Assembly: GCA_022794215.1 (NCBI GenBank)
Contig: JAAWEH010000006.1
Location: 1-64,000, forward strand
Direction of reading: 5' to 3'
DNA length: 64,000 nt
Source: Oscillospiraceae bacterium
GTDB lineage: Bacteria; Bacillota; Clostridia; Oscillospirales; Oscillospiraceae
Part shown: in pieces, positions 2,988 to 36,059 of the stretch
How the letters are laid out: each line of letters begins with the position of its first letter
Position numbering within the stretch: the first letter of the stretch is position 1
Notes under the pieces: model-generated
Seen by the model: only the letters and a program-made list of their open reading frames with translations
What the model was told of the DNA's origin: nothing
The model's database searches: none
Translations under genes and position numbers: made by a program

Positions 2988-4247
2988 ATGAACATGAACC
3001 ACTTTGGAAAACGGGCGGCGGCCCTGGGCCTCGCCCTTTTGTTCTCCCTGTCCCTGGGCGCCTGCGGCGGCAAGACCCCCGCCGAGAGCGAGACTCCCAC
3101 GGTGGAGGCCACCCCCACCCCGGAGCCCACTCCCACCCCTGAACCTACCACCCCGCCCGTCCCCCTGGTGGCATGGGGCCCCGACCAGGTGGTAGAGCAC
3201 CTCTTCTTCCACCCGGTCATCGCCTATCCCCAATGGGCTTTCCACGACTGCCCCTCCTCCGAGAGTCAGAAGAAGGGGCTGGACGACTGGATGGTGACGG
3301 TGGATGAATACAACAAAATCCTCCAGAATGTCTATGACCGGGACTATGTTCTGGTAAGCATGAACGATGTCTGGACCGAGGTCACCGGCGCCGACGGCGT
3401 GGCCCGGATGCAGCGCAACACCCTGATGATTCCCGAGGGCAAAAAGCCCCTCATCATCTCCTTTGACGACACCAACTATTACGACTATATGCTGGAGGAG
3501 GGCTTTACCTCCAAGCTGGTGCTGGGCAGCGACGGAGAGGTCTGGGCCGAATGTACCGATCCCTACACCCAGGAGACCTTCCTGACCCAGGATCTGGACG
3601 CCATCACCATCCTGGATAAATTTGTGCGGGAGCACCCTGATTTCTCCCCCAACGGGGTCAAGGGCTGCCTGTCTCTCACCGGCTACCAGGGCATCCTGGG
3701 TTACCGAACCCAGAACGACATCGACATCGGGGAAAACGACCCCCGCCGCCCTGCCTTTGACGCCAACCGGAAGGCAGAACAAGAGGCCGTAAAGCCCATC
3801 ATCCAGCGCCTCAAGGAAACCGGATGGTACTTCGGCTCCCACACCTGGGGCCATATCAATCTCAACGGTGACCGGGTGGATCTGGCCTGGGTCAAGCGGG
3901 ACACCATCCGCTGGCAGGAGGAGGTAGGCTCTCTGGTGGGCCCCACCCAAATCCTCTTCTACCCCCATGGCGCCCGGCCCGATGGGGATGACTGGCACAA
4001 GACCGGCCCCAAGTTCCAATTCCTTCAGGAGTTCGGCTTCCGTATCTTTGCCAGCGTGGGCATCAACTCCTTCTCCTATGTAAAGCAGGACATCTCCGCC
4101 GTGATCTGCGACCGGCTCCATCCCGACGGCACCACTCTCCGGGGCGGGCCCAGCGGCAAGGCTGTGGGCTGGTACAGCCAATTCTACGACGCCCGGGAGA
4201 TCATCGACCTGGATGTCCGCCCCAACCTGGGCGTCACCTGGCAATAA
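2988..4247 (+). CDS. Lipoprotein with polysaccharide-deacetylase (NodB-like) domain
   Basis: Lipobox LSLGACGG, TP-rich linker, 'IISFDDTNYYDYM' and 'GSHTWGH' NodB-like motifs. SD AAGAGG before ATG. Confidence 0.75.
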   Translation: MNMNHFGKRAAALGLALLFSLSLGACGGKTPAESETPTVEATPTPEPTPTPEPTTPPVPLVAWGPDQVVEHLFFHPVIAYPQWAFHDCPSSESQKKGLDDWMVTVDEYNKILQNVYDRDYVLVSMNDVWTEVTGADGVARMQRNTLMIPEGKKPLIISFDDTNYYDYMLEEGFTSKLVLGSDGEVWAECTDPYTQETFLTQDLDAITILDKFVREHPDFSPNGVKGCLSLTGYQGILGYRTQNDIDIGENDPRRPAFDANRKAEQEAVKPIIQRLKETGWYFGSHTWGHINLNGDRVDLAWVKRDTIRWQEEVGSLVGPTQILFYPHGARPDGDDWHKTGPKFQFLQEFGFRIFASVGINSFSYVKQDISAVICDRLHPDGTTLRGGPSGKAVGWYSQFYDAREIIDLDVRPNLGVTWQ

Positions 4248-4270
4248 ACCGTTATTAAGGAGGTCTATTC

Positions 4271-4666
4271 ATGACTGACCGAGCCCTGGCCGACCTGGCC
4301 TATACCATGCTGGAACGCTCCTATGTGCCCTACTCCAAGTTTCCCGTAGGCGCCGCTCTCCTGTGTGCCGACGGCACGGTGTTCACCGGCTGCAACATTG
4401 AGAACGCGGCCTACGGCTCCACCATCTGCGCCGAGCGCACCGCTCTTGTCAAGGCGGTAAGCGAGGGCCACCGGGATGATTTTGTCCGTCTGGCAGTGGT
4501 GGGCGAGTCTGCCGACTACTGCTGGCCCTGCGGCGCCTGCCGTCAGATGCTCTACGAGTTTGCCCCTGATCTGGAGCTCCTGGTGGGCCGGGGCGACCGG
4601 GAATTTACCAAACTGAAGCTCTGCGATCTCCTCCCCCATGGCTTTGGTCCCAAAAGTCTGAACTGA
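4271..4666 (+). CDS. cdd: Cytidine deaminase
   Basis: 'SKFPVGAALL', 'NIENAAYGSTICAERTAL', 'PCGACRQ' zinc/catalytic motifs. Confidence 0.95.
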   Translation: MTDRALADLAYTMLERSYVPYSKFPVGAALLCADGTVFTGCNIENAAYGSTICAERTALVKAVSEGHRDDFVRLAVVGESADYCWPCGACRQMLYEFAPDLELLVGRGDREFTKLKLCDLLPHGFGPKSLN

Positions 4667-4673
4667 TTCCCAA

Positions 4674-4711
4674 CAGGCCGCGGCAATCCTCGCCGCGGCC
4701 TGTTCTTTTTT
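4674..4711 (+). terminator. Rho-independent terminator after cdd
   Basis: CAGGCCGCGGC/GCCGCGGCCTG stem followed by a T-rich tract. Confidence 0.85.
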
Positions 4712-4744
4712 CTTGACTTCCCCCCAAACTTTTGCTATTATAAA

Positions 4745-4765
4745 ATACATACCGACGGTATGTAT
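4745..4765. promoter_or_regulatory. Predicted TetR operator (perfect palindrome)
   Basis: ATACATACCG-A-CGGTATGTAT immediately upstream of the TetR gene; partial second copy before the MFS gene. Confidence 0.75.
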
Positions 4766-4781
4766 GAAAGAAGGGATCGCC

Positions 4782-5426
4782 ATGGCACGAAATAAATATC
4801 CTGAAGAGACCCAGAGAAAGATCCTGGACGTCTCCTTCCGTCTCTTCACCCAAAAGGGCTACGACCACACCACCATCCAGGATATTGTGGACGCTCTGGG
4901 CATGAGCAAGGGGGCGGTCTACCACCACTTCAAGAGCAAGGAGGACATCCTCGACCATCTCTATGACCGCTATTATGTGGATTCCAAAATGTTTGACCTG
5001 CTGGAGGATCCCTCCCTCTCCGGCCTGGAAAAGCTGCGGGAGCTGCTGCGGCGGCAGCTGGCCGATCCGGGAAAGCTGGACATTGACGGCATCTCTATCT
5101 CCTTTGAAAATAACCCTCAGCTGATCCGCCTGCTCCTCACCACCTCCGTCCGGGATGCGGCTCCCATCATTCAGCGCCTGCTGGAGGAGGGCAATGCCGA
5201 CGGTTCCCTCTCCACCCCCTACCCCAAGGAGGCCGCGGAAAGCTTCTTGGTTCTGCTGAACTTGTGGGCGGGCATCTTCTCCCGCAGTCGGGAGGACTTC
5301 ATGGCAAAATTCCGTTTCCTCCAGGCCATGGCCGACGGCCTGGGTATTCCCGTTTTTGACCAAACCCTCATGGACACCCTGGACGCCTATTACACCCGTG
5401 TTGCCCACAAGCTCTCGGCCCAGTGA
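4782..5426 (+). CDS. TetR/AcrR family transcriptional regulator
   Basis: 'RKILDVSFRLFTQKGYDHTTIQDIVDALGMSKGAVYHHFKSKEDIL' TetR HTH. Confidence 0.9.
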   Translation: MARNKYPEETQRKILDVSFRLFTQKGYDHTTIQDIVDALGMSKGAVYHHFKSKEDILDHLYDRYYVDSKMFDLLEDPSLSGLEKLRELLRRQLADPGKLDIDGISISFENNPQLIRLLLTTSVRDAAPIIQRLLEEGNADGSLSTPYPKEAAESFLVLLNLWAGIFSRSREDFMAKFRFLQAMADGLGIPVFDQTLMDTLDAYYTRVAHKLSAQ

Positions 5427-5507
5427 CCCTGCCCCTCCCTTCCGGGGCCGCGGCTGCCTTGCGTCCCCTTTTCTCCGCCCCACCCCGGGGCGGTTTTTCT
5501 CCCCAAT

Positions 5508-5532
5508 ATACATACCAACCGTCGGTATCTAT
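5508..5532. promoter_or_regulatory. Second predicted TetR operator
   Basis: ATACATACCAACCGTCGGTATCTAT shares ACCGnCGGTATnTAT with the palindrome at 4745-4765. Confidence 0.6.
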
Positions 5533-5556
5533 CAATCCAAATCAGGAGGTTCTCCC

Positions 5557-6765
5557 ATGACTAACACGCTCTTTTCCCGGCCCTTCTGCCTCATGCTCCT
5601 GGGGCAGGTCGTCTCCCTGCTGGGCAACGCCATCCTTCGCTTTTCCCTGTCCCTGTATGTCCTGGATCTCAGCGGTTCGGCCTCCCTCTTCGGCGCTGTG
5701 CTGGCCGCCTCCATGCTCCCCACCATCCTTCTCTCCCCCTTGGGCGGAGTGCTTGCCGACCGCCTGCCCCGGCAGAAGATCATGTACACCCTGGATTTCC
5801 TCACCGCCATCGCCGTCTGGAATTTCGGCCTGTTCGGGCAAACCGGCTCCACCGTCCCCCCTGCCGCGCTCCTTTTTGCCCTCTCCGCCATCCAAGCCTG
5901 TTATCAGCCCTCTGTCCTCTCCGCCGTTCCTCTGCTGGTTCCCCAGGCTGAACTTACCCGGGCCAACGGTCTGGTGACCCAGGTCAGCGCTCTGTCCTCC
6001 CTTCTGGGCCCTGTTGCCGGCGGCCTCCTCTACGGCTTTTTGGGCCTGGATGCCATCTGCTGCGTCAGCGCCGGGTGCCTGCTGGCCTCCGGCGTCATGG
6101 AACTTTTCCTGCGCATCCCCTTTCTCCCGCCGGCCCCCGGCAAAAACCGTCCCTCCCCTCTGTCCGACCTGCGGGAAGCCGCCGTCTTTCTTGCCCGCTC
6201 GGGCCTTCTTCCCCTGCTGATGGTTGTGGCCGGCATGAACCTCTTTCTCTCCTCCCTTTATCTGGTGGGCCTTCCCTATTTCATCAAGGTCACCCTGAAT
6301 CTTTCCAGCCAACTTTACAGCCTGGTGGAGGCCGCCCTGGGCCTGGGTACCATTCTGGGGGCCCTCTTCACCGGTCTCCGGGGACAAAAGCTCTCCTTCT
6401 CCCGTTCCTGGCGGTATCTGCTCCTCTCCGTTCTGTCTCTGGGCGCCATGCTCCCCGCATTGGCCTTCCCCGCCCTTCCTTTGCTTTCCTGGGCCGTCCT
6501 TCTGCTATCTGCCCTGCTGGGCATGACCTTCGCTGGCGTTTTCTCCATTCTGGCCCAAACGCACTTTCAAACCGTCACCCCCACCTCCCTGCTGGGAAAG
6601 GTGGGCTCCTTTGTCACGGCGGCGGCCACCTGCGCAATGCCTTTGGGACAAGGGCTATACGGTCTGCTGCTGGATCGCCTGCCTCCCTGGGGCGTCCTTC
6701 TGCTGAGTCTGCTTGCCTGCCTGCCTCTGGTCGCCCTATCCCGCCGCCTGCAGAAGGCCCCTTGA
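5557..6765 (+). CDS. MFS transporter
   Basis: Multi-pass protein with MFS motif A-like 'GGVLADRLPRQKIM'; SD AGGAGG. Confidence 0.85.
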   Translation: MTNTLFSRPFCLMLLGQVVSLLGNAILRFSLSLYVLDLSGSASLFGAVLAASMLPTILLSPLGGVLADRLPRQKIMYTLDFLTAIAVWNFGLFGQTGSTVPPAALLFALSAIQACYQPSVLSAVPLLVPQAELTRANGLVTQVSALSSLLGPVAGGLLYGFLGLDAICCVSAGCLLASGVMELFLRIPFLPPAPGKNRPSPLSDLREAAVFLARSGLLPLLMVVAGMNLFLSSLYLVGLPYFIKVTLNLSSQLYSLVEAALGLGTILGALFTGLRGQKLSFSRSWRYLLLSVLSLGAMLPALAFPALPLLSWAVLLLSALLGMTFAGVFSILAQTHFQTVTPTSLLGKVGSFVTAAATCAMPLGQGLYGLLLDRLPPWGVLLLSLLACLPLVALSRRLQKAP

Positions 6766-24977: not shown

Positions 24978-26933
24978 TTACTTCCCGGTTTTCAGCGCTC
25001 TTGTAGCATTGAGAATGGCGATCACACTGACCCCCACGTCGGCGAAGGTGGCCTCCCACATGTTGGCCTTCCCCAGCACACCCATAAGGAGGAAGATCCC
25101 CTTGACCCCTAAGGCAAACACAATGTTCTGGTTCGCGATCCGCAGCGTCCGCCGGGCCATGGCGATGGCCTGGGCCAGCTTGGAGGGTTTGTCGTCCATG
25201 AGCACCACGTCGGCGGCTTCTATGGCCGCGTCGCTGCCCAGAGCGCCCATGGCCACCCCCACATCGGCCCGGGAGAGAACGGGGGCGTCATTGATGCCGT
25301 CTCCCACAAAGGCCAGGGCGGCCTTGGGGGATTTTTCCCGCAGCAGCGCCTCCACCTGAGCCACCTTGTCCGCCGGCAGCAGCTGGGCATGAACCTCATC
25401 CAACCCCAGCTGGGCGCCCACTGCGTCGCCCACCTCCTTGGCGTCCCCGGTGAGCATAACGGTTTTCTTCACCCCAATCTCCTTCAGGGCTGCAATGGCC
25501 TCCTGAGCGTCGGGCTTCACTTGATCGGAGATGACAATGTGACCCAGGTACGTCCCCTTTTCCGCCACATGGACGATGGTTCCCGCTTTGTGACAGGGGC
25601 GCCAGGCCGCCCCTTCCTCCTCCATGAGCTTATCGTTTCCCACATAGAGGGTCAGACCATCCACCTCGGCCTTCACGCCCCGGCCCGCCAGCTCCTCCAC
25701 ATGGGTCACCCGAGCTTCCTCTATTTCCTTGCCATAGGCCTCCCGAAGAGAGCGGGCAATGGGGTGGTTGGAGTAGCTCTCCGCCAAAGCTGCCAGCTCC
25801 AGCAGCCGCTCCTGGGTGCCCTCCTCCGGATGGATGGTGGCCACCAGAAACACCCCCCGGGTCAGGGTGCCGGTCTTGTCAAATACCACCGTCTCTGTCC
25901 GGGCCAGGGCCTCCAGATAGTTGCTGCCCTTCACCAGAATACCGGCCTTGGAGCAGCCTCCGATGCCGCCGAAGAAGGTCAGGGGCACCGAAATCACCAG
26001 CGCGCAGGGGCAGGAGATGACCAGGAAGATAAGGGCCTGCCGGAACCATCGGATCCAATCCCCGTCTATCAAAAGGGGCGGCAGGATGGCCAGCGCCACT
26101 GCGCCAATGACCACCGCCGGAGTATACCATTTGGCAAAGCGGGTGATAAACTGCTCCGTCCGGGCCTTCTTGGTGGAGGAATTTTCCACCAGATCCAGGA
26201 TCTTCGCCACAGTGGACTCCCCAAATTCCTTGGTGGTTCGCACCCGGAGAAGTCCACTCATGTTGATACAGCCCGAAATCACATCGTCCCCGGGGCCGAT
26301 ATCCCGGGGCAGGGATTCCCCGGTGAGGGCAGCGGTATTCAAGGTGGAAGTCCCCTCCAGCACCACCCCGTCGATAGGTACCCGCTCGCCAGGCTTGATG
26401 ACAATGATCTCCCCTACCGCTACTTCTTCAGGATCTACCTCTTCCACCGTACCGTTCCGCTCCACCTTGGCGGAATCGGGCCGAATGTCCATAAGGGCGG
26501 CAATGGATTTTCGGGATTTCCCTACCGCCACCGCCTGGAACAGCTCTCCCACCTGGTAGAACAGCATGACAAAGACGGCCTCGGGATATTCGCCGATGGC
26601 CAGAGCCCCCACAGTGGCGATGGCCATAAGGAAATTTTCATCAAAGACCTGGCCATTTTTGATGTTGCGCAGGGCCTTCCACAGAATATCCCAGCCAATG
26701 GTAAAATAGGGGATAAGATAAAGCCACCACAGCTCCAAAAAATAGCCTATGATCTGATTGCCGGCGGCATCCTGCCCCGGCCGGGCCTGGCTCAGAAACG
26801 GAACAGTCAAAAGGGGGCTGTCCTGCCCCAAATAGAGCTGCCCACCCGTAAATCGCTCCGTTGCCACCGCCGTCACCAGCAGGATGGCAGCAGCAAAGAT
26901 CCTGCAGAGCATCTTTTTCTGCTTCTTATTCAC
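24978..26933 (-). CDS. Heavy-metal (Zn/Cd-type) translocating P1B ATPase
   Basis: 'VISCPCALVISVP' (CPC), 'VFDKTGTLTRG', 'VAFVGDGINDAPVLSRADVGVAMG'. GTG start after SD GGAGG; the ORF extends to 26972. Confidence 0.93.
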   Translation of the reverse strand: MNKKQKKMLCRIFAAAILLVTAVATERFTGGQLYLGQDSPLLTVPFLSQARPGQDAAGNQIIGYFLELWWLYLIPYFTIGWDILWKALRNIKNGQVFDENFLMAIATVGALAIGEYPEAVFVMLFYQVGELFQAVAVGKSRKSIAALMDIRPDSAKVERNGTVEEVDPEEVAVGEIIVIKPGERVPIDGVVLEGTSTLNTAALTGESLPRDIGPGDDVISGCINMSGLLRVRTTKEFGESTVAKILDLVENSSTKKARTEQFITRFAKWYTPAVVIGAVALAILPPLLIDGDWIRWFRQALIFLVISCPCALVISVPLTFFGGIGGCSKAGILVKGSNYLEALARTETVVFDKTGTLTRGVFLVATIHPEEGTQERLLELAALAESYSNHPIARSLREAYGKEIEEARVTHVEELAGRGVKAEVDGLTLYVGNDKLMEEEGAAWRPCHKAGTIVHVAEKGTYLGHIVISDQVKPDAQEAIAALKEIGVKKTVMLTGDAKEVGDAVGAQLGLDEVHAQLLPADKVAQVEALLREKSPKAALAFVGDGINDAPVLSRADVGVAMGALGSDAAIEAADVVLMDDKPSKLAQAIAMARRTLRIANQNIVFALGVKGIFLLMGVLGKANMWEATFADVGVSVIAILNATRALKTGK

Positions 26934-26975
26934 GAAAATATCCCTCCTCAAAATGCCGGATGCCATTGCCAAGAC

Positions 26976-27590
26976 TCAACGGGGCTTTTCAATCACCGCA
27001 ATGCCTTCGGGCACCCGGCCCCGGATGACCTCCAGCTCCACCCTTCCCAAACGCAAGCCCTCCAAAAAGCCCCGGTAGCTCTCGGGGGTGAAGGCGTGCT
27101 CATAATGGAAGCCTACCCCTTGATAAATCTTGATCATCGTTCCATACGCCGCCCCCACCCTCCCCTGCAGGTAAGTGGGCAGAATAAGCCGTCCTCCCGG
27201 GGCAGTGACCCGCCACAGCTCCCTCACCGCTTGCTCCGGCTGGGGCAGCAGGTGAAGGACATTGGCGGCCATGGCCACGTCAAAGGCTCCGTCCCTGTCG
27301 GTCAATGCAGTCACATCCCGGAGGACAAAGGAAATATTGGTCAGCCCTTGCCTCCGGGCCTTTCTCTCTCCTTGGGCCAGCATGGCCGGGGACAGATCGG
27401 CAGAGAGCACCCAGGCCGCCTTTTTCGCCGCCGCCAGGGAAAATTCCCCTGTACCGGCGGCGCAGTCCAGCACCGTGGCCCCACAGGGAACCAACGCCTC
27501 CACCCGGGCCGCGGCCATGGCATTGACCCGGCTGTTGCTCCGCTCCACCAGGTCATAAAACCGGGCCCATCTGTCCCAAAACGTACTCAT
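26976..27590 (-). CDS. Class I SAM-dependent methyltransferase
   Basis: 'ATVLDCAAGTGEFSLAAAKKAAWVLSADLSPAMLAQ', 'VAMAANVLHLLPQPEQAVRELWRVTAPGGRLILP'. Confidence 0.88.
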   Translation of the reverse strand: MSTFWDRWARFYDLVERSNSRVNAMAAARVEALVPCGATVLDCAAGTGEFSLAAAKKAAWVLSADLSPAMLAQGERKARRQGLTNISFVLRDVTALTDRDGAFDVAMAANVLHLLPQPEQAVRELWRVTAPGGRLILPTYLQGRVGAAYGTMIKIYQGVGFHYEHAFTPESYRGFLEGLRLGRVELEVIRGRVPEGIAVIEKPR

Positions 27591-27808
27591 TTCAGCACGA
27601 TCTCACAGTCAGGCTCCACCTTTTTGCAGACCTTCACCACCTGATCCATGATCTCATCGAAGCGTTCGTCCTCGGCTTCAATGGTGAGCCGCTGCTGGAT
27701 AAAGCTGACGGTGGCTGCCTTCACGCCGTCGATGCGGTTGATGGCCTCCTCCATCTTCGCTGCGCAATTGGCACAGTCCAGGTCTGTCAAATTGAATTTC
27801 TTCTTCAT
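27587..27808 (-). CDS. Stand-alone heavy-metal-associated (HMA) domain protein
   Basis: 'KKKFNLTDLDCANCAAKMEEAINRIDGVKAATVSF' CxxC HMA motif. Confidence 0.9.
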   Translation of the reverse strand: MKKKFNLTDLDCANCAAKMEEAINRIDGVKAATVSFIQQRLTIEAEDERFDEIMDQVVKVCKKVEPDCEIVLK

Positions 27809-27851
27809 CGTTTCTTCCTCCTATTTCGTATTGATGATTTGGAATACCGTC

Positions 27852-28220
27852 TCACTCTTCAATGTGCTCCATACCCTGACCCAGGATGGTGACCACATGG
27901 TCATCCGCCAGAGAATAGAATATGGTTTTCCCCTCCCGGCGGTACTTTACCAGCTTGGACTGCTTCAGGGCCCGAAGCTGATGAGAGATGGCGGATTGGG
28001 TCATGCCCAGCAGCTGGGCAATGTCACACACACACATTTCCGACTCAAAGAGCACATACAGGATCTTGATGCGGGTGGAATCGGCAAAGATGCGGAACAG
28101 ATCCGCCAAGTCATACAGGGTCTCATCATCAGGCAAGGCCTTCTCCACCCGTTTTACAATATCCTCGTGGACATGGATAAACTCGCAGTTTTCCACCTCC
28201 GGCAAATGGTTCTCTGACAT
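27852..28220 (-). CDS. ArsR/SmtB family metal-responsive repressor
   Basis: 'DLFRIFADSTRIKILYVLFESEMCVCDIAQLLGMTQSAISHQLRALKQSKLVKYRREGKTIFYSLAD'. Confidence 0.95.
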   Translation of the reverse strand: MSENHLPEVENCEFIHVHEDIVKRVEKALPDDETLYDLADLFRIFADSTRIKILYVLFESEMCVCDIAQLLGMTQSAISHQLRALKQSKLVKYRREGKTIFYSLADDHVVTILGQGMEHIEE

Positions 28221-28242
28221 GGCAACCTTCCTTTCAAATTAC

Positions 28243-28262
28243 ATATGAACAATTATTCATAC
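28243..28262. promoter_or_regulatory. SmtB/ArsR-type operator
   Basis: TATGAA-caatta-TTCATA directly upstream of the arsR-type gene. Confidence 0.75.
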
Positions 28263-28359
28263 ATTGTTTGTAACCTCATTATACATCTTTTTCCCCCGCT
28301 GTCAAGGGGAATTTTTCTCTCCCTTTGCAGGCCCGCACCGTATTTCGAAATAGAGCCAT

Positions 28360-28399
28360 AAAAATCCCCGCCTCCCAAAGAGAGGCGGGGATTTTTATT
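28360..28399 (-). terminator. Rho-independent terminator after the uridine phosphorylase gene
   Basis: AAAAATCCCCGCCTC..GAGGCGGGGATTTTT. Confidence 0.8.
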
Positions 28400-28406
28400 T
28401 CAGTTC

Positions 28407-29186
28407 TTATCCGTTCTTCCTGTCCTCCTGGATCAGCAGTTTCAGCGCCTCCACGCCCACCTGGATGGCGGCCTGAAGGTCATGACTCTCCTTTTGATCC
28501 AGCCCGGCGGCCTCCCGCTCCTGGTTCCAGATCACGTGGAAACAGGAACCGCAGCGGACGTCCAGGGCGGCGGCGCAACAGAAAAGGGCGGCGCTCTCCA
28601 TCTCGGAGGCCAAAACCCCCAGCCGCTTCCAGGCCTCCCATTTGGCCAGCAGCTCATAGCTCACCGGCATCCGGCTGGGACTATGCTGGCCATAGAAGGA
28701 ATCCTTACACTGAACCACCCCCGCGTGCCAAGGCTTACCCAGGTTCTTGGCCGCCTGGACCAGGGCCTGCTGCACATGGTAGTCACTGACTGCCGGGAAC
28801 TCAATGGGCGCATACTCCCGGCTGGTTCCCTCATGCCGAACGGCGCCGGTGGCGATGACCACGTCGTCGGACTGCACCTTCAGAGCAATGCCGCCGCAGG
28901 TGCCCACCCGAATAAAGGTGTCGGCGCCGATGTTGTGGAGCTCCTCCATGGCAATCACCGCCGAAGGGCCGCCGATCCCGGTGGAGCAGACGCTAACCTT
29001 CTCCCCCAGCAATGTGCCGGTATAGATGGTGTACTCCCGATTGGAGTGAACTTTGCGGGCGTCGTCAAAATAGGCGGCGATCTTCTCGCAGCGCCCGGGA
29101 TCGCCGGGCAGAATGCAATACCGGCCCACGTCCCCCTCCTTGCACTGGATATGGAATTGAAGTTCATGTTCCTGCATCAAGGTCAC
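28407..29186 (-). CDS. udp: Uridine phosphorylase-like nucleoside phosphorylase
   Basis: '[20 protein letters not shown]', '[18 protein letters not shown]', 'IRVGTCGGI', '[15 protein letters not shown]'. Confidence 0.9.
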
Positions 29187-29296
29187 CTCATTTTATTTTT
29201 TACTGGCTCTTATTGGAAATATTATACCTCATTTATCTCTATTCTGCAAGATATACTGCAAAATCAGCCCCCTTCCGCCAAAATGAAAACTGACGC

Positions 29297-29325
29297 TTGA
29301 AAAAGCGTGTCAAAATTGGTAAAAT
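29297..29325 (+). promoter_or_regulatory. Sigma-A promoter for the PPase-like gene
   Basis: TTGAAA-N17-TAAAAT. Confidence 0.6.
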
Positions 29326-29390
29326 GAAGGGTAAACTATAAATTAAACTACAAATGGCCTGGGGATTGGGGCGGTGCGGCTGCCGGTTTC

Positions 29391-31529
29391 ATGGGTCAAA
29401 AGGAGTTGGGGCAGTTGCCGTTGCAAATGGAAAACCTGATCTGGTTGGGTGTTGGCGGAGCCGTTCTCTGCCTTGGCTTTGCCCTGCTCCAGCTGCGCAG
29501 GGCTCTGGGACCTAAGGTCGAGGCGAACGACCCCCTTCAGGGCTGGTATAAGGCCATTCGCGAGGGGGAGCGAGCCTTTTTTAAGGTGCAATATCCCCTT
29601 CTTTTTGGCGCTTTCTGCCTCATTTTTGCGCTATTTGTGGCCCTGTTCTCCGGCGGGCTTTTGCCCGATCCTTTTTTCCCCGCCGCCTTCTTTTCGGGCG
29701 GGGTCTGCGGCACGTTGGTGTGTCTAATCGGCACGAAGGTCTCCGACGCCGCCGGGATCGCCGCCGCCAGAGCTGCAGGGGAGAGCTTCAACCGGGCGCT
29801 GGGAACCGTTTTTTCCTCGGGGGCCGTCGCCGGCTTCTTGGCCGCAGGCCTGGGGCTGGCCCATGTGACCGGGTGGATCCTCTTTTTGAAGTATCAGATG
29901 GGGTATACTCCCGACGCCATTGCCGGAACCATGATCCCGTTTGGAGCAGGGGCTTGCCTGATGGCCCTGCTGCTTCGATTGGGCGGAAGCTTTTTCTCCC
30001 AGGCCGCCAATCTGGGCAGCCGCATGGCAGAGGGGACAGAAGAGACTTTGGGGCCGGCGGTTGCCCGCTGCGTGGGCGGTGGAGCCGGATGCATGGGAGG
30101 CTTGGGGGCCGGACTCTATGAATCCTATGTGGCCAGTCTTCTCGCCGCCCTTGCTTTGGGCGCCGCTTCTGCCGAGGACGGGCTTATGTGGAGCGCTCTG
30201 GTTCTGCCTTTGGCGGTAGCCGCCATCGGCGCTTTCTGCTCCATGATCGCGACCCTCCTGATCCGTTCCCGGGAGAAAGCGGGCCAGCGGGAGCTGCTGT
30301 TTATCCTCCGCAAGGGATGCTATACCGCCGCCATTCTTACAGGAGCGGTCTGTATCCCGGTCACCTATCTCCTCTTTGGCTCCTGGGAGCTCTGGTTTCC
30401 CGTCCTAACGGGGCTTGTGGCCGGGTGTATCTTCAGCTACTGGACCGAGTGTTCCACCTCAGCGGCCTACGGGCCCGTCCACCAGTTGAGCCGGGCCGCT
30501 GAAACGGGAACGGAAGGCGCCCTTTTGGAGGGGCTGCGTTTGGGGCTGCGCTCCACGGCAGGCACTGTGTTTATTGCCTCGGCATCTATTCTGATCGCCT
30601 TCCTTTCCGCGGGAGGGACTTTGAGCGGCGATCCCTCCGTTTTCTTCAAAGGCTGTTACGCAGTGGCCCTGGCCGGGGTGGGGATGCTCTCCACCGCAGG
30701 GATCACCCTGGCAGCCGGCTCCATGGGGCCGGGGTGCCGCAATGCAAGCCGTTTGGCTGAGGCTCAGTGGCCGGAGGACGGAGCCGTCACTGAACGCTCC
30801 CGGGCCCTGTCTTTCCTTGGAAGCTCCGCCATGGCCGGAGGCAAAGGCTTTGACGCCGGGGCCTCCTTCCTGACTGCGGCGGCAATGCTTTTGGCCTGTG
30901 TCGTTCTGCTCCGGTCTCAACTGCCGAGCGGCACTTTGCAGCTTACCCATCCGGCGGCGCTGGCAGGGATCCTGCTGGGTGTTATGACCGCCTTCGCCTT
31001 TGCCGCTCTGGTCATCAAAGGGGTGCAGCGCTCTGTCCAGGCCGGGGCGGAAGAGCTTCGCCGCCAGCGGCGGGAAAGCCGGGAGACCTCGGACAGAAAG
31101 CCCGCACAATCAGGACCCACAGCCTTTGTGGGCCGGTGCGCCAAAAGCGCTCTGCGGCAGATGGCCGCTCCTATTCTTCTGGCGGCGCTCTCCCCGGTGG
31201 CAGCGGGACTGATCCTGGGTGTTCCGGGAATGCTGGGGCTGGTATTTGGCGTGATGATCAGCGGCTTTGCCCTGTCGGTCTATATGTCCAATACGGGCAG
31301 TGCCTGGGGAAACGCCATGGAGTACATTGAAAGCGGAAAGCTGGGCGGGAAGGGCTCTGCCTGCCACAAGGCGGCCACTGTGTGCGCCGGGGTGGGCGAT
31401 CCCTTCCGGGAGGTTGCGGGGCCCGCATTGAACCAGCTGATGAAGCTGTGTGCCGCCATGGCGCTGCTTACCACGCCCCTCCTCCTTTCCTTTGACTTTT
31501 ACGCATTCCTTGCCGCTATACTGGGATAA
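29391..31529 (+). CDS. Membrane-bound pyrophosphatase (H+-PPase) homologue with degenerate active site; probable pseudoenzyme
   Basis: Recognisable scaffold: 'RLGGSFFSQAANLGSRMAEGTE', 'GGLGAGLYESYV', 'TECSTSAAYGPVHQLSRAAETGTEGALLEGLRLGLRSTAGTV', 'SAWGNAMEYIESGKLGGKGSACHKAATVCAGVGDPFREVAGPALNQLMKL'. Canonical [18 protein letters not shown] and related acidic motifs are substituted. Start may be 29427 (MENLIWLG). Confidence 0.85.
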   Translation: MGQKELGQLPLQMENLIWLGVGGAVLCLGFALLQLRRALGPKVEANDPLQGWYKAIREGERAFFKVQYPLLFGAFCLIFALFVALFSGGLLPDPFFPAAFFSGGVCGTLVCLIGTKVSDAAGIAAARAAGESFNRALGTVFSSGAVAGFLAAGLGLAHVTGWILFLKYQMGYTPDAIAGTMIPFGAGACLMALLLRLGGSFFSQAANLGSRMAEGTEETLGPAVARCVGGGAGCMGGLGAGLYESYVASLLAALALGAASAEDGLMWSALVLPLAVAAIGAFCSMIATLLIRSREKAGQRELLFILRKGCYTAAILTGAVCIPVTYLLFGSWELWFPVLTGLVAGCIFSYWTECSTSAAYGPVHQLSRAAETGTEGALLEGLRLGLRSTAGTVFIASASILIAFLSAGGTLSGDPSVFFKGCYAVALAGVGMLSTAGITLAAGSMGPGCRNASRLAEAQWPEDGAVTERSRALSFLGSSAMAGGKGFDAGASFLTAAAMLLACVVLLRSQLPSGTLQLTHPAALAGILLGVMTAFAFAALVIKGVQRSVQAGAEELRRQRRESRETSDRKPAQSGPTAFVGRCAKSALRQMAAPILLAALSPVAAGLILGVPGMLGLVFGVMISGFALSVYMSNTGSAWGNAMEYIESGKLGGKGSACHKAATVCAGVGDPFREVAGPALNQLMKLCAAMALLTTPLLLSFDFYAFLAAILG

Positions 31530-31537
31530 GATACGCA

Positions 31538-31570
31538 CAGGGCCGAACCCTTGGGTTCGGCCCTGCTTTT
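31538..31570. terminator. Bidirectional Rho-independent terminator
   Basis: CAGGGCCGAACCC/GGGTTCGGCCCTG followed by CTTTTT. Confidence 0.85.
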
Positions 31571-33051
31571 TACCACTCTATCCACCCGGTGGCAATGTTC
31601 TCTCGGAAGGCCCGGTCATGCTCCACAAAAACCAGGGTAGGGCAGTACTCCAAAATCAGCTCCTCCACCTGCTGCCGGGACCAGAGATCCATATAATTCA
31701 GCGGCTCGTCCCAAAGATAGAGGTGGGCGCTTTGGCACAGGCTCCTGGCAAGCAGGAGCTTCTTTTTCTGTCCGGCGCTCCAACAGGACAGCTCCTTTTC
31801 CAGCTGGCTGCGTTCCAGCCCCAGTTGGCGAAGGATGGCCCGACACAAAACGCCGTCCAGCTGCCACTGCTCCAGCCTGTCCTCCAGCCGGCCCTGCAAG
31901 CCGCCGATGCTCTGGGGCACATAGGAGGTTTGGAGCCGGCCCGGGCGGATCACCTCTCCCGTCCACTCCGGGCCTTCCCCGGCCAGAAGGCGCAGAACAC
32001 TGGTCTTTCCGCAGCCATTGGGCCCCACCAGGGCCAGACGTTCTCCGGGGGCAACGGAGAAGGACAGGGGCCGGCACACCGGTTTCCCATGGTAGACCGG
32101 AGCCGCCTGCCGCAGCTCCGCCAGACGCTTGCCCTGAAAGGTCAGGGGGGACAGCTTGAGAGGAAGGGCCGTCTCCACATTGCCCAGAAGCTTTTCCTTC
32201 TCCTCCACTGCCGACAAACGGCGGTTTTCAATGGCTTTGGAGCGCTTGGCCATCTTTGCGGCCATATGGCCCACATGTCCCTTATCCGGCTTTAGTCCTG
32301 AGGCGGTCACCCCGGCGTTCTTGGTTTTTTCCACTCGCCGTGACCATTCCCCGGTCTGCCGGACAGCTTGGCGCAGCTGGGCGATCTCCTTCTTCAGCTG
32401 GCCGTCCCGCCGCTCCTCCTGCAGGGTTCGGCGGCGGGTCTCTTCCTGCCAGGTGGACCAGTTGCCCGCCTGGAGCCGGGGGCCCATCCGCTCCAGGGCC
32501 AGGATATGATCCACACAGCCGTCCAAAAAGGCCCGGTCATGGGACACCAGCAGAAAGCCCCGCTGACGGCGGAGGTATGAGGCCACCTTTTTTCGACCCG
32601 CCTCATCCAGGTGGTTGGTGGGCTCGTCGATGAGGGGGAAACAGCCCTCCTCCAAAAAGAGGGAGGCCAGCAGCACCTTGGTCTGCTCCCCGCCGGAGAG
32701 AGTGGAAAAGGGCCGCTCCAGGGCCTCCGGCTCCACCCCCAAAAGGCTCAGCTCCCGCTCCTGCTCCCAGGGCTCCGACTGGGGGCAGAGGGCGGAGAGC
32801 ACCTGCTCCGTACGGCTCTCCGGGGCCTCCACCGGGGCGGGAAAACGGCAGCAGCGGACAGGGGCGATGAGAGCTTTTCCCCCCTCCAGCTCCCCACTGA
32901 GCAGCTTTAGCAGGGTGGTCTTTCCCCGTCCGTTGCGGCCGATGAGCCCCAGCCGCCAGCTTGTGTCCAGCCGGAGGGTCAGGTCTTCAAATACATTCTC
33001 CGCTCCGCCTTCATAGGCGAAATGCAGATGTTGGATCTCAATGATGGACAT
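31570..33051 (-). CDS. ABC-F family ATPase (Lsa/ribosomal-protection-like)
   Basis: Two ABC domains: 'GLIGRNGRGKTTLLKLL', 'LSGGEQTKVLLASLFLEEGCFPLIDEPTNHLD', 'ALVGPNGCGKTSVLRLL', 'WSAGQKKKLLLARSLCQSAHLYLWDEPLNYMD'; no TM segments. Confidence 0.9.
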   Translation of the reverse strand: MSIIEIQHLHFAYEGGAENVFEDLTLRLDTSWRLGLIGRNGRGKTTLLKLLSGELEGGKALIAPVRCCRFPAPVEAPESRTEQVLSALCPQSEPWEQERELSLLGVEPEALERPFSTLSGGEQTKVLLASLFLEEGCFPLIDEPTNHLDEAGRKKVASYLRRQRGFLLVSHDRAFLDGCVDHILALERMGPRLQAGNWSTWQEETRRRTLQEERRDGQLKKEIAQLRQAVRQTGEWSRRVEKTKNAGVTASGLKPDKGHVGHMAAKMAKRSKAIENRRLSAVEEKEKLLGNVETALPLKLSPLTFQGKRLAELRQAAPVYHGKPVCRPLSFSVAPGERLALVGPNGCGKTSVLRLLAGEGPEWTGEVIRPGRLQTSYVPQSIGGLQGRLEDRLEQWQLDGVLCRAILRQLGLERSQLEKELSCWSAGQKKKLLLARSLCQSAHLYLWDEPLNYMDLWSRQQVEELILEYCPTLVFVEHDRAFRENIATGWIEW

Positions 33052-33059
33052 GGCGTCCT

Positions 33060-33160
33060 CCCTTCTCACGCACGGCAAAAAAATCAGGCCGCGGGAAAGC
33101 AAGCTCTCCCTTGGCCCATGTGCGTGAAAAAGGCGCCCTTCGCTTCTGCGAAGGCGGGAA
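33060..33160 (-). promoter_or_regulatory. Transcription attenuator leader of the ABC-F gene
   Basis: Minus strand: hairpin CGCCTTCGC-agaa-GCGAAGGGCG then CCTTTTTC, and a second hairpin GGGCCAAGGGA...TTCCCGCGGCCT then GATTTTTTT, both upstream of the ABC-F start. Confidence 0.65.
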
Positions 33161-33528
33161 GAAGGCTCACATTCTCGCATCCGGGCATGAAAAGGTTGGG
33201 GTTACCCCCCTTCCCATCTCTTTTACCCGTTACTCAGCGAGAAATGTGACGCATCTTCCCAGCTCCCCTCTATCTCTTTGAGGGGATTTTAACAGACGGG
33301 GAGGGATTTGTCAAATGGGGAGAGTCTGCAGGGCCATTCTCCTCAAGATTCAGAGCCGTTTGGCTCTTATCCTTTCGGAAAAGAATGGTTCTCCGCCGCC
33401 CACGCGATATCTGGTTTTGACCGCAGCCACCATCCAAAGGGTAAAATTCCCAAATCCATCATTTTACAAACCGAAAAAAATCAGGTATAATAAATATCCA
33501 TCGACATTTCCGGGAGGTGAGGCACTGC

Positions 33529-34443
33529 ATGAAAAACAGGCTTTGGGCTGTTATACCGGCATTTGCGCTGCTGCTGGCGGGGTGCAGCCAGACTCCCGCG
33601 GAGGAGGAAAATCTGCATATCCTGGCCACCACCTACCCAGTATACCTCTTTACCACTGCCCTTACAGAGGGAATAGATGAGGTGGAGGTCTCTCTTCTGG
33701 TCAATTCTCAAACCTCCTGCCTCCACGACTATACCTTAACGGTGAAGGACATGAAGGCCATCGAGAAGGCCGACATTATCGTCATGAACGGAGCGGGGCT
33801 GGAGGAGTTTATGGAGGACGCTCTGGCAACCTCTGACGCAGTGGTCATCGACTGCTCGGAGGGGGTGGAGCTGCTGCCTACTTTGGAGCACCACGGCCAC
33901 GACGGCCACGACCATGAGGAGGAATATGACCCTCATTTCTGGATGGAGCCGGAGAGGGCCTGTCAGATGGTCAACAACATTGCCCAAGGGCTTTTCCCCC
34001 TGCTTCCGCCCCAGAGCGGCAACCCGGCCGTTCAAGATTTCTCGGCCCGGTGGACCGGGACAGACACCGCCATTGACACGATCCTCTATAAGCAGGATAC
34101 CTCCCCCCTGACGGGCCAAAAATTCATCACCTTCCACGACGGCTTCCAATATTTTGCCCAGGCTCTTGGCCTGGATCTTTTGAAGGCCATCGAGGAAGAG
34201 GAGGGGGCCACCGCCTCTGCCGCTGAGATCAAGGAGGTCGTGGCCCTCATCGAGGAATACCACATCCCCGCCATCTTCGTGGAAAAGAACGGCTCCTCGG
34301 CCACGGCGGAGGTCATCGCCCGGGAGACGGGCTGCGGCGTTTATGAGCTGGATATGCTCATGAGCGGGGACGGTTCGGGCATCCAGGCCTATCTTGACGC
34401 CATGAGCCGCAATTTAGAAACCATTTTGGAGGCTCTCCCATGA
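33529..34443 (+). CDS. znuA: Zinc-type ABC transporter substrate-binding lipoprotein
   Basis: Lipobox 'LLLAGCSQ', His-rich 'HHGHDGHDHEEEYDPHFWMEPERACQMVNNIAQGL', 'FHDGFQYFAQALGL'. Confidence 0.88.
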   Translation: MKNRLWAVIPAFALLLAGCSQTPAEEENLHILATTYPVYLFTTALTEGIDEVEVSLLVNSQTSCLHDYTLTVKDMKAIEKADIIVMNGAGLEEFMEDALATSDAVVIDCSEGVELLPTLEHHGHDGHDHEEEYDPHFWMEPERACQMVNNIAQGLFPLLPPQSGNPAVQDFSARWTGTDTAIDTILYKQDTSPLTGQKFITFHDGFQYFAQALGLDLLKAIEEEEGATASAAEIKEVVALIEEYHIPAIFVEKNGSSATAEVIARETGCGVYELDMLMSGDGSGIQAYLDAMSRNLETILEALP

Positions 34444-35210
34444 GCATACACAAGCATGACAACTGCACCGGCCGCGGCTGTGAAGGGCTTTGCTGCCTGG
34501 AGCTGAAGAATGTGGGGGTTACCATGGGCACCGACGAGCTGCTGCGGGAGGTGTCCTTCCACCTCCACTGCGGGGAAATCGCCGCTCTCATCGGGCCCAA
34601 CGGGGCGGGCAAGTCCTCCCTGTTCAAGGCCATTTTGGGGCAGCTGCCCCATTCGGGCTCCATCGGGTTTCAGCGCTCTGACGGGGCCAAGAGCCGACCG
34701 GTCATCGGCTATGTGCCCCAGTCCCCCACCTTTGACCGGGGAGATCCGGTGAGCGTGCTGGACTTTTTTGCCGCCGCCGTCGGCGACTGGCCCGTATTTC
34801 TGCCCATCCCCCGGAAGCTCCGGGAGCGGGTGGGGGCCTGCCTCGCCCGAACCCATGCCGAGGGGCTGATGGACAAGCGGGTGGGCGCCCTGTCGGGCGG
34901 AGAACTGCAGCGGGTGCTGATGGCACTGGCTTTGGAGCCCCTGCCCCACATCCTTATTCTGGACGAGCCTTTGTCCGGTGTAGACGTGGAGGGAGAGCGG
35001 CAGCTTCTGGACATGCTGGACGAGCTGCGGCGAACCTATGACCTCTCCATCCTTTTTTCCACCCATGATTTTGCCACTCTGGAGCAGTACGCCGACAAGG
35101 TGATCCTGCTTCAGAACACGGTGTTGAAGATCGGCTCCCCCGGACAGGTACTGGGGTCGGCGGAGTTTCAAGGCGTGTTTCACCTGCGGATGGGAAAGGG
35201 GGCGGAGTGA
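34440..35210 (+). CDS. znuC: Metal ABC transporter ATP-binding protein, Cys/His-rich N terminus
   Basis: 'ALIGPNGAGKSSLFKAIL', 'LSGGELQRVLMALALEPLPHILILDEPLSGVD'; N-terminal 'MSIHKHDNCTGRGCEGLCC'. Confidence 0.9.
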   Translation: MSIHKHDNCTGRGCEGLCCLELKNVGVTMGTDELLREVSFHLHCGEIAALIGPNGAGKSSLFKAILGQLPHSGSIGFQRSDGAKSRPVIGYVPQSPTFDRGDPVSVLDFFAAAVGDWPVFLPIPRKLRERVGACLARTHAEGLMDKRVGALSGGELQRVLMALALEPLPHILILDEPLSGVDVEGERQLLDMLDELRRTYDLSILFSTHDFATLEQYADKVILLQNTVLKIGSPGQVLGSAEFQGVFHLRMGKGAE

Positions 35211-36059
35211 ATGGAGCTTTGGTACGCTCTTGTGGATCTGCTGCCCTTTGAGTGGGCACAGCCGGGGCACATGTTCTTTATGAAACATGCGCTGCTGGCC
35301 GTTTTGGTCATCTCGCCCCTGTTTGGGCTTTTGTCCACCATGGTGGTGCAGAGCCGGATGTCCTTTTTCTCCGACGCGCTGGGACATTCCGCCTTTACGG
35401 GCATTGCCATCGGGGTGCTGTGCGGGCTTCAGGAGCCCATGTGGGCAGCGGTGGGGTTCGCGCTGGCGTTCTCCCTTCTCTTTACCTGGGTGCGCAGGCG
35501 AACCAGTCTGGCAAGCGACACGGTGATCGGCGTCTTTTCCTCCACGGCCGTGGCCCTGGGGATCTTTGCGGCCACTTTGGGGGGCGGATCCTTTACCAAG
35601 TTCAACGCGCTGCTCATCGGCGATATTTTAAGCGTGGAGCCCCGGAGGATCGGGCTGTTGGCGGGGATCCTGGCGGTGGCGCTGGTACTGTGGGTGTGCG
35701 CTTACAATACCTTGCTGCTCTCCGCTCTCCACCCTCCTTTGGCGGACAGCCGGGGGATCCGGGTCTTTTGGCAGGAGGCGGTGCTCAACGCCGCTATCGC
35801 TGTGGTGGTGACGGTGTCCATGACCTGGGTGGGACTGCTGGTCATCAACTCTCTGCTGGTTCTCCCTGCCGCCGCCGCCCGGGGGATCGCCCGGAATACC
35901 CGACAGTATCATCTGTTTTCCGTTTTGGGGGCTGTGGTGTGCGGCGTGGCTGGGTTGATGACTTCCTATTATATTGAGGCCTCCGCCGGGGCTGCCATCA
36001 CACTGTATCTGGCGCTCTATTTTGCCCTTGCCGCGGTTTTTCAGCGGGAGCGCCCGTAA
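35211..36059 (+). CDS. znuB: Metal ABC transporter permease
   Basis: ABC-3 family: 'MKHALLAVLVISPLFGLLSTMVVQSRMSFFSDALGHSAFTGIAIGVL'. Confidence 0.9.
   Translation: MELWYALVDLLPFEWAQPGHMFFMKHALLAVLVISPLFGLLSTMVVQSRMSFFSDALGHSAFTGIAIGVLCGLQEPMWAAVGFALAFSLLFTWVRRRTSLASDTVIGVFSSTAVALGIFAATLGGGSFTKFNALLIGDILSVEPRRIGLLAGILAVALVLWVCAYNTLLLSALHPPLADSRGIRVFWQEAVLNAAIAVVVTVSMTWVGLLVINSLLVLPAAAARGIARNTRQYHLFSVLGAVVCGVAGLMTSYYIEASAGAAITLYLALYFALAAVFQRERP

Follow-up and report, generated by a model that had tools for sequence, protein, structure and literature searches.

Membrane pyrophosphatases (mPPases) have been treated as uniformly catalytic. They are homodimers whose catalysis requires an Asp/Lys pocket, and their nucleophilic water is activated by two aspartates, D6.43 and D16.39 (PMC5150537). 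The 64,000-nt stretch of Oscillospiraceae DNA that we analysed, here termed the window, contains a gene (29391–31529, + strand) that is an uninterrupted frame throughout and codes for a full-length mPPase homologue in which most catalytic residues are replaced. A sequence-only reading took it for a neofunctionalised paralogue of a true mPPase. The locus raises the question of whether the gene is a second copy, a decaying remnant or a former pump under selection for another role, and of where in the protein such selection would act. A selected non-catalytic clade, if true, would show a non-hydrolytic use of the fold and provides a natural set of roughly 700-residue variants that separates fold requirements from catalytic requirements.

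Fold and catalytic residues of the window protein

The window protein is homologous to mPPases over its whole length. The Pfam H_PPase profile (PF03030) matches it at 401 bits across profile positions 3–644 of 645, and the solved proteins nearest to it are mPPases. In an AlphaFold2 model (pLDDT 91.5, pTM 0.92) the helices fit 16 transmembrane segments, as in the mPPase fold, and all 36 PDB matches of the model at E ≤ 0.001 are mPPases (TM 0.78–0.89), with canonical relatives standing in the predictor's input alignment, so that the model expresses compatibility with the fold and no independent proof of it. A clade B protein, from among the altered relatives described below, gave a similar result (pLDDT 88.3). 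The profile alignment and the comparison with solved structures, both proposed in the sequence-only reading, bear out its claim of an intact mPPase scaffold. The window protein falls under the equivalog cut-offs of all 13 NCBIfam models that it matches (best score 402.8 bits, lowest cut-off 546); a canonical relative clears several of these cut-offs.

The hydrolytic centre has fared differently from the scaffold. In mung bean (Vigna radiata) numbering, transferred by an alignment with the numbering checked, the window protein retains R242, K541, D727 and K742, has Arg at K730 and Glu at D731, and lacks K250, D253, D257, E268, D279, D283, D287 (Cys here), D294, D507, N534, D691, K694, K695 and D723. 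Motif matches and the alignment place these changes on the + strand. The TM5 motif QAANLGSRMAEGTE (30000–30041) has lost K250, D253 and D257, and the TM6 motif GPAVARCVGGGAGCMGGLGAGLYESYV (30051–30131) E268, D279, D283, D287 and D294; loop 5–6 is shortened (within 30042–30131, by alignment), the PEDDPRNP stretch being absent. D507 is gone from the TM11 motif MGPGCRNASRLAEA (30723–30764), and D691, K694 and K695 from the TM15 motif AWGNAMEYIE (31302–31331). The TM16 motif HKAATVCAGVGDPFRE (31365–31412) has lost D723 and kept D727, and carries the K730-to-Arg and D731-to-Glu replacements. All five altered motifs occur in the sequence exactly as first quoted.

To quantify the loss, we took as invariant the 117 alignment columns with an identity of 97% or more across 34 canonical relatives, of which 18 are catalytic and 99 are not. 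The window protein keeps 2 of the 18 catalytic invariants (K541 and D727) as against 58 of the 99 others (Fisher p = 2e-4), and 32 of the 40 glycines among the invariant columns; its catalytic loss exceeds chance. The six altered relatives keep 1–4 catalytic and 35–59 other invariants (Fisher p ≤ 0.02 each). None of the seven proteins thus has the Asp/Glu/Lys/Asn hydrolytic centre of the family, and, as expected of a pseudoenzyme, catalytic residues have gone while other conserved positions stay, which upholds the earlier view of a scaffold without its hydrolytic centre. At the ion gate, where the position of the gate Glu differs between mPPase subtypes (PMC9408878), the window protein still has R242 and K742 and has lost D294. 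Because the Asp/Lys pocket and the activating aspartates are gone, hydrolysis of the known type and the pumping coupled to it should be absent from the window protein.

The gene is equipped with expression signals, as the sequence-only reading had claimed for its open frame. A promoter-like TTGAAA-N17-TAAAAT (29297–29325, +), found by promoter scan, lies in columns conserved in canonical and altered loci of the genus, and a sequence scan identified a terminator-like intrinsic hairpin followed by CTTTTT (31538–31565, +); own terminators are present behind the altered genes of clade B as well as that of the window. The proposed frame and stop codon (31527–31529, +) stand, and only the start has to move. 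Because a conserved ribosome-binding site AAAAGGAG (29398–29405, +), present in all ten aligned loci (in one with G replacing A), falls within the frame as originally drawn, the true start is probably TTG 29415 or TTG 29421 and not ATG 29391, and we re-assigned the coding sequence to 29415–31529 (+).

Distribution and genomic position of the altered genes

An H_PPase homologue occurs in all 16 genomes examined of the Pseudoflavonifractor-like genus to which the window belongs. In seven species (G000, which is that of the window, G001, G006, G008, G009, G012 and G014) the protein is degenerate, and in each the altered gene is a single open frame; about 70 other tabulated sequences from the genus, family and order are canonical, with the whole hydrolytic centre kept. 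In the rpoB phylogeny the seven carriers group as a single clade (support 99/98). Their altered proteins likewise group together in an mPPase tree containing all seven (SH-aLRT 99), the sampling of which included wrong antisense ORFs, and the six that remain when the very long L077 is left out form one clade at 100/99. Branches of 0.3–3.4 substitutions per site, against 0.03–0.2 in canonical members of the genus, show strong acceleration of the altered lineages and leave the branching order within the pseudo clade uncertain. Collecting orthologues, as had been proposed, recovered the same loss across these species of the genus; the expectation that the substitutions themselves would be conserved failed, as the exact replacement residues vary between the altered lineages. 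Given this variation, the simplest reading would be a single early inactivation, after which the pocket drifted, with separate completions of the loss also possible.

The most degenerate member is L077 of G012 (3787–5778), which keeps 35 of the 99 structural invariants and lacks the stretch bearing the loop 15–16 region but has kept a single open frame; it may represent an advanced stage, or a lineage in which function is being lost.

The altered gene has the neighbours of canonical hppA in the genus. A divergently oriented PNP_UDP phosphorylase gene (28407–29186, −; Pfam and synteny) identifies the hppA locus throughout the genus, the other flank of which holds ZnuA, ABC ATPase, ABC-3 permease and amidase genes (Pfam). 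The −35 and −10 promoter elements and the ribosome-binding site are common to canonical and altered genes, and are intact in six altered copies. With its position at the hppA locus and its hppA promoter and ribosome-binding site, the altered gene is hppA itself, changed in situ, and no paralogue. A paralogue would be expected in addition to a canonical hppA elsewhere in the genome, whereas this gene sits at the same syntenic locus. The proposed search for a canonical hppA in the same genomes had a divided outcome: no second H_PPase gene was found in six of the seven carriers, all drafts of 67–94% completeness, and G012 alone has a second, canonical one (L071).

These observations bear directly on the sequence-only reading, in which a neofunctionalised paralogue serves as an assembly partner or regulator of a true mPPase. 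Homodimeric assembly (PMC5150537) would let a dead subunit modulate a live one, and L071 would supply the partner in G012; that draft, however, has 7% contamination, in the drafts of the other six carriers no H_PPase to be partnered was found, and the gene is at the hppA locus itself. We consider a paralogue or partner highly improbable, and reject it on synteny and on the lack of a second gene in those six carriers.

Metal-transport genes flank the pseudo-mPPase in the window (24978–36059; all Pfam assignments): an E1-E2 ATPase (24978–26972, −) and an ArsR-family regulator (27852–28220, −) on one side, and a ZnuA-type binding protein (33517–34443, +) and an ABC ATPase with ABC-3 permease (34440–36059, +) on the other. 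A zinc link is not implied by these flanks, because canonical hppA loci have the same gene order.

Selection and constraint in the altered genes

Substitution rates could be measured in four of the seven species, namely clade B, which make up two pairs; the window copy, 44–45% identical to its nearest relatives, is too divergent. In these pairs dN/dS is 0.31 (0.25–0.38) and 0.26 (0.21–0.33), while neighbouring genes in the same pairs give 0.20–0.22 (znuA) and 0.26 (amidase) at similar dS, and canonical genus members 0.04–0.27 among themselves. In each pair, catalysis had already been lost in the common ancestor of the two species. As the ratios are well below 1 and near those of znuA and the amidase, the altered gene is under purifying selection after the loss of catalysis in clade B; the proposed dN/dS test on orthologues thereby supports the claim that selection retained the gene. 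Reading frames point the same way. No in-frame stop occurs in any of the seven copies, where substitutions placed at random up to the same divergence would produce 6–13, and every indel that separates the members of a close pair has a length divisible by three. The marks of a decaying pseudogene, namely stops, frameshifts, a dN/dS near 1 and a lost promoter, are absent, and with seven open frames in one clade, the low dN/dS and the stop simulation, a lone pseudogene confined to one lineage and missing from its relatives, which the earlier reading had named as a check on itself, is ruled out.

The evidence of selection is weaker for the window copy, for which it consists of the open frame (no stops, against 13 on average and at least four in simulation), the codon-position pattern (0.43, 0.32 and 0.54 against G007) and the intact promoter. 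Its codon bias is weak (Nc 48, versus 34 for its rpoB), which points to either a low level of expression or relaxed selection. In the genus, canonical hppA genes (L003–L010) have a codon bias as strong as that of rpoB, and expression seems to have fallen after conversion in the window lineage.

We then located the constraint within the protein, comparing an inner ring of helices, which from the general mPPase fold we take to be TM5, 6, 11, 12, 15 and 16, with the outer ring, with helix boundaries from the predicted model. The inner-to-outer conservation ratio is 0.87 in clade B, compared with a mean of 2.03 (minimum 1.48) over 1553 canonical quartets of similar overall identity, although these quartets span deeper taxa and the shallowness of clade B would by itself account for part of a flat profile. 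Stronger evidence comes from dN/dS, which is reversed: inner values of 0.48 and 0.31 and outer values of 0.23 and 0.24 in the two clade B pairs contrast with 0.14–0.20 and 0.28–0.43, respectively, in canonical genes. The focus of constraint has shifted outward, away from the catalytic inner ring and onto the outer helices; helix by helix, the differences fall short of significance (p = 0.06). The best-kept stretches of clade B lie after TM15, after TM9, near TM3–4 and in TM1–2, and TM10 and TM13, which contribute to the mPPase dimer interface, are among its less conserved outer helices. Acidic residues of the inner ring drop from 16–17 in canonical to 5–9 in altered proteins, with Lys and Arg going from 10–11 to 7–14. 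The old pocket shows no sign of having become a conserved site for a new ligand, a reading that is ruled out for clade B, where pocket columns (0.30) are no better conserved than the background (0.39).

Possible roles and wider context

Pyrophosphate hydrolysis could be covered in most carriers by other enzymes. A soluble pyrophosphatase is present in six of the seven genomes, belonging to family I in G000, G001, G008 and G014 and to the DHHA2-type family II in G006 and G012. Because many canonical species also have the family I enzyme, this back-up predates the loss. The sister carriers G006 and G012 hold their family II genes as long open frames and have no family I, unlike the other scored carriers; the type of soluble pyrophosphatase has changed within the genus.

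On balance we think it somewhat more probable than not that hppA lost hydrolysis in the clade ancestor and now encodes a non-pumping membrane scaffold or adaptor. In this model, an ordinary hppA would have lost PPi hydrolysis in place in an ancestor among Pseudoflavonifractor-like gut bacteria, hydrolysis being dispensable since a soluble pyrophosphatase was available. With PPi and Mg binding no longer selected, buried acids of the inner ring would have been lost, with selection continuing to act on the 16-helix scaffold, on the outer helices and on several motifs of the cytosolic loops; the protein may now act through its outer ring and cytosolic loops, the former pocket and ion gate playing no part. 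We infer the scaffold or adaptor role, and prefer it, because the pore and pocket are less constrained and the outer helices more. The broader proposition, that a primary ion pump became, at its own locus, a membrane protein of new function (scaffold or adaptor, ligand-sensing or channel), with selection now on the outer helices, and that this is the first mPPase pseudoenzyme family, we hold to be an even call. The shift of constraint predicts, in a testable manner, that the new function resides in the outer ring.

Next in probability, though unlikely, is a PPi-independent channel or transporter for ions or anions through the old funnel and exit channel. The predicted 16-helix fold is kept, the inner ring is now net positive, and R242 and K742 near the ion gate persist in the window protein; against this, the pore-forming inner ring is under the weakest constraint in clade B, and gate residues vary across the seven lineages. 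The same long branches and near-uniform replacement could also be those of a slowly decaying hppA remnant under relaxed selection and, in the window species at any rate, now without function, a reading with which the weak codon bias of the window copy and the state of L077, without its C-terminal loop region, agree. It ranks after the channel: confidence limits on dN/dS lie far from 1 and the values resemble those of neighbouring working genes, stops are missing even where simulation never gave fewer than four, and promoter and ribosome-binding site are intact in six copies. Improbable, and behind decay, is that the protein is still an enzyme, whether a pyrophosphatase or phosphohydrolase with rearranged residues or one acting on another phosphate substrate. 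D727 and K541, the conservative D731E and K730R replacements in the window protein and the constantly basic Arg-Arg at the K694 and K695 positions of clade B would be in keeping with residual catalysis, but the Mg- and PPi-ligating residues are gone in all seven proteins, clade B has not conserved its pocket, and D287, one of the two water-activating residues (PMC5150537), is Cys in the window protein.

In homology and predicted fold the window protein is like canonical HppA, the K+-dependent Na+/H+ mPPase (PF03030; Thermotoga maritima 4AV3, Vigna radiata 4A01), from which it differs by the loss of 16 of 18 catalytic residues, by the shorter loop 5–6 and, in the altered group, by constraint on the outer ring. 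Its nearest relatives outside the pseudo clade, at 44–45% identity and in the same neighbourhood, are the hppA products of sister species (L003 of G007; L105 of Pseudoflavonifractor sp. Marseille-P3106), whose genes, unlike that of the window, have the full catalytic set and rpoB-strength codon bias.

Among membrane pseudoenzymes, iRhoms are catalytically dead rhomboid proteases. They share with the pseudo-mPPase a membrane enzyme fold under selection after catalysis was lost, but their fold is unrelated and active paralogues coexist with them, whereas here the sole hppA has been converted.

No further pseudo-mPPase was found outside the genus in about 800 genomes (401 of the family and 392 of the class) scanned with PF03030. 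Low scores outside the genus come from contig-edge or split pieces and one divergent subtype; most of the low scorers that we opened have canonical motifs, a few short pieces stop before the active site, and two further matches (L174 and L180) are marginal at 20–23 bits. A wider pseudo-mPPase family is rejected on these grounds. In a scan of named genomes the window protein had no match and the clade B alignment matched named relatives; matches from termite and cockroach guts (L107, L108 and L110) carry GDNVGD and are canonical. The literature searched, which was open-access and largely outside subscription journals, contains no report of an inactive or pseudoenzyme mPPase. The pseudo-mPPase apparently is undescribed, as the sequence-only reading had supposed. 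Pfam-based annotation would label the window protein a pyrophosphatase, and an H_PPase gene in a gut genome is no proof of PPi-driven ion pumping.

Two other unusual loci emerged from the survey. The canonical mPPase L075 of G023 is split into two open frames (364 and 473 amino acids) that lie in different reading frames, through a frameshift or an assembly error. L160 of G021 is a divergent, long mPPase with an open frame of 837 amino acids, the motif DCTGDNAGD with its acids kept and an N-terminal extension that resembles a signal or extra membrane segment, and may be an unusual mPPase subtype.
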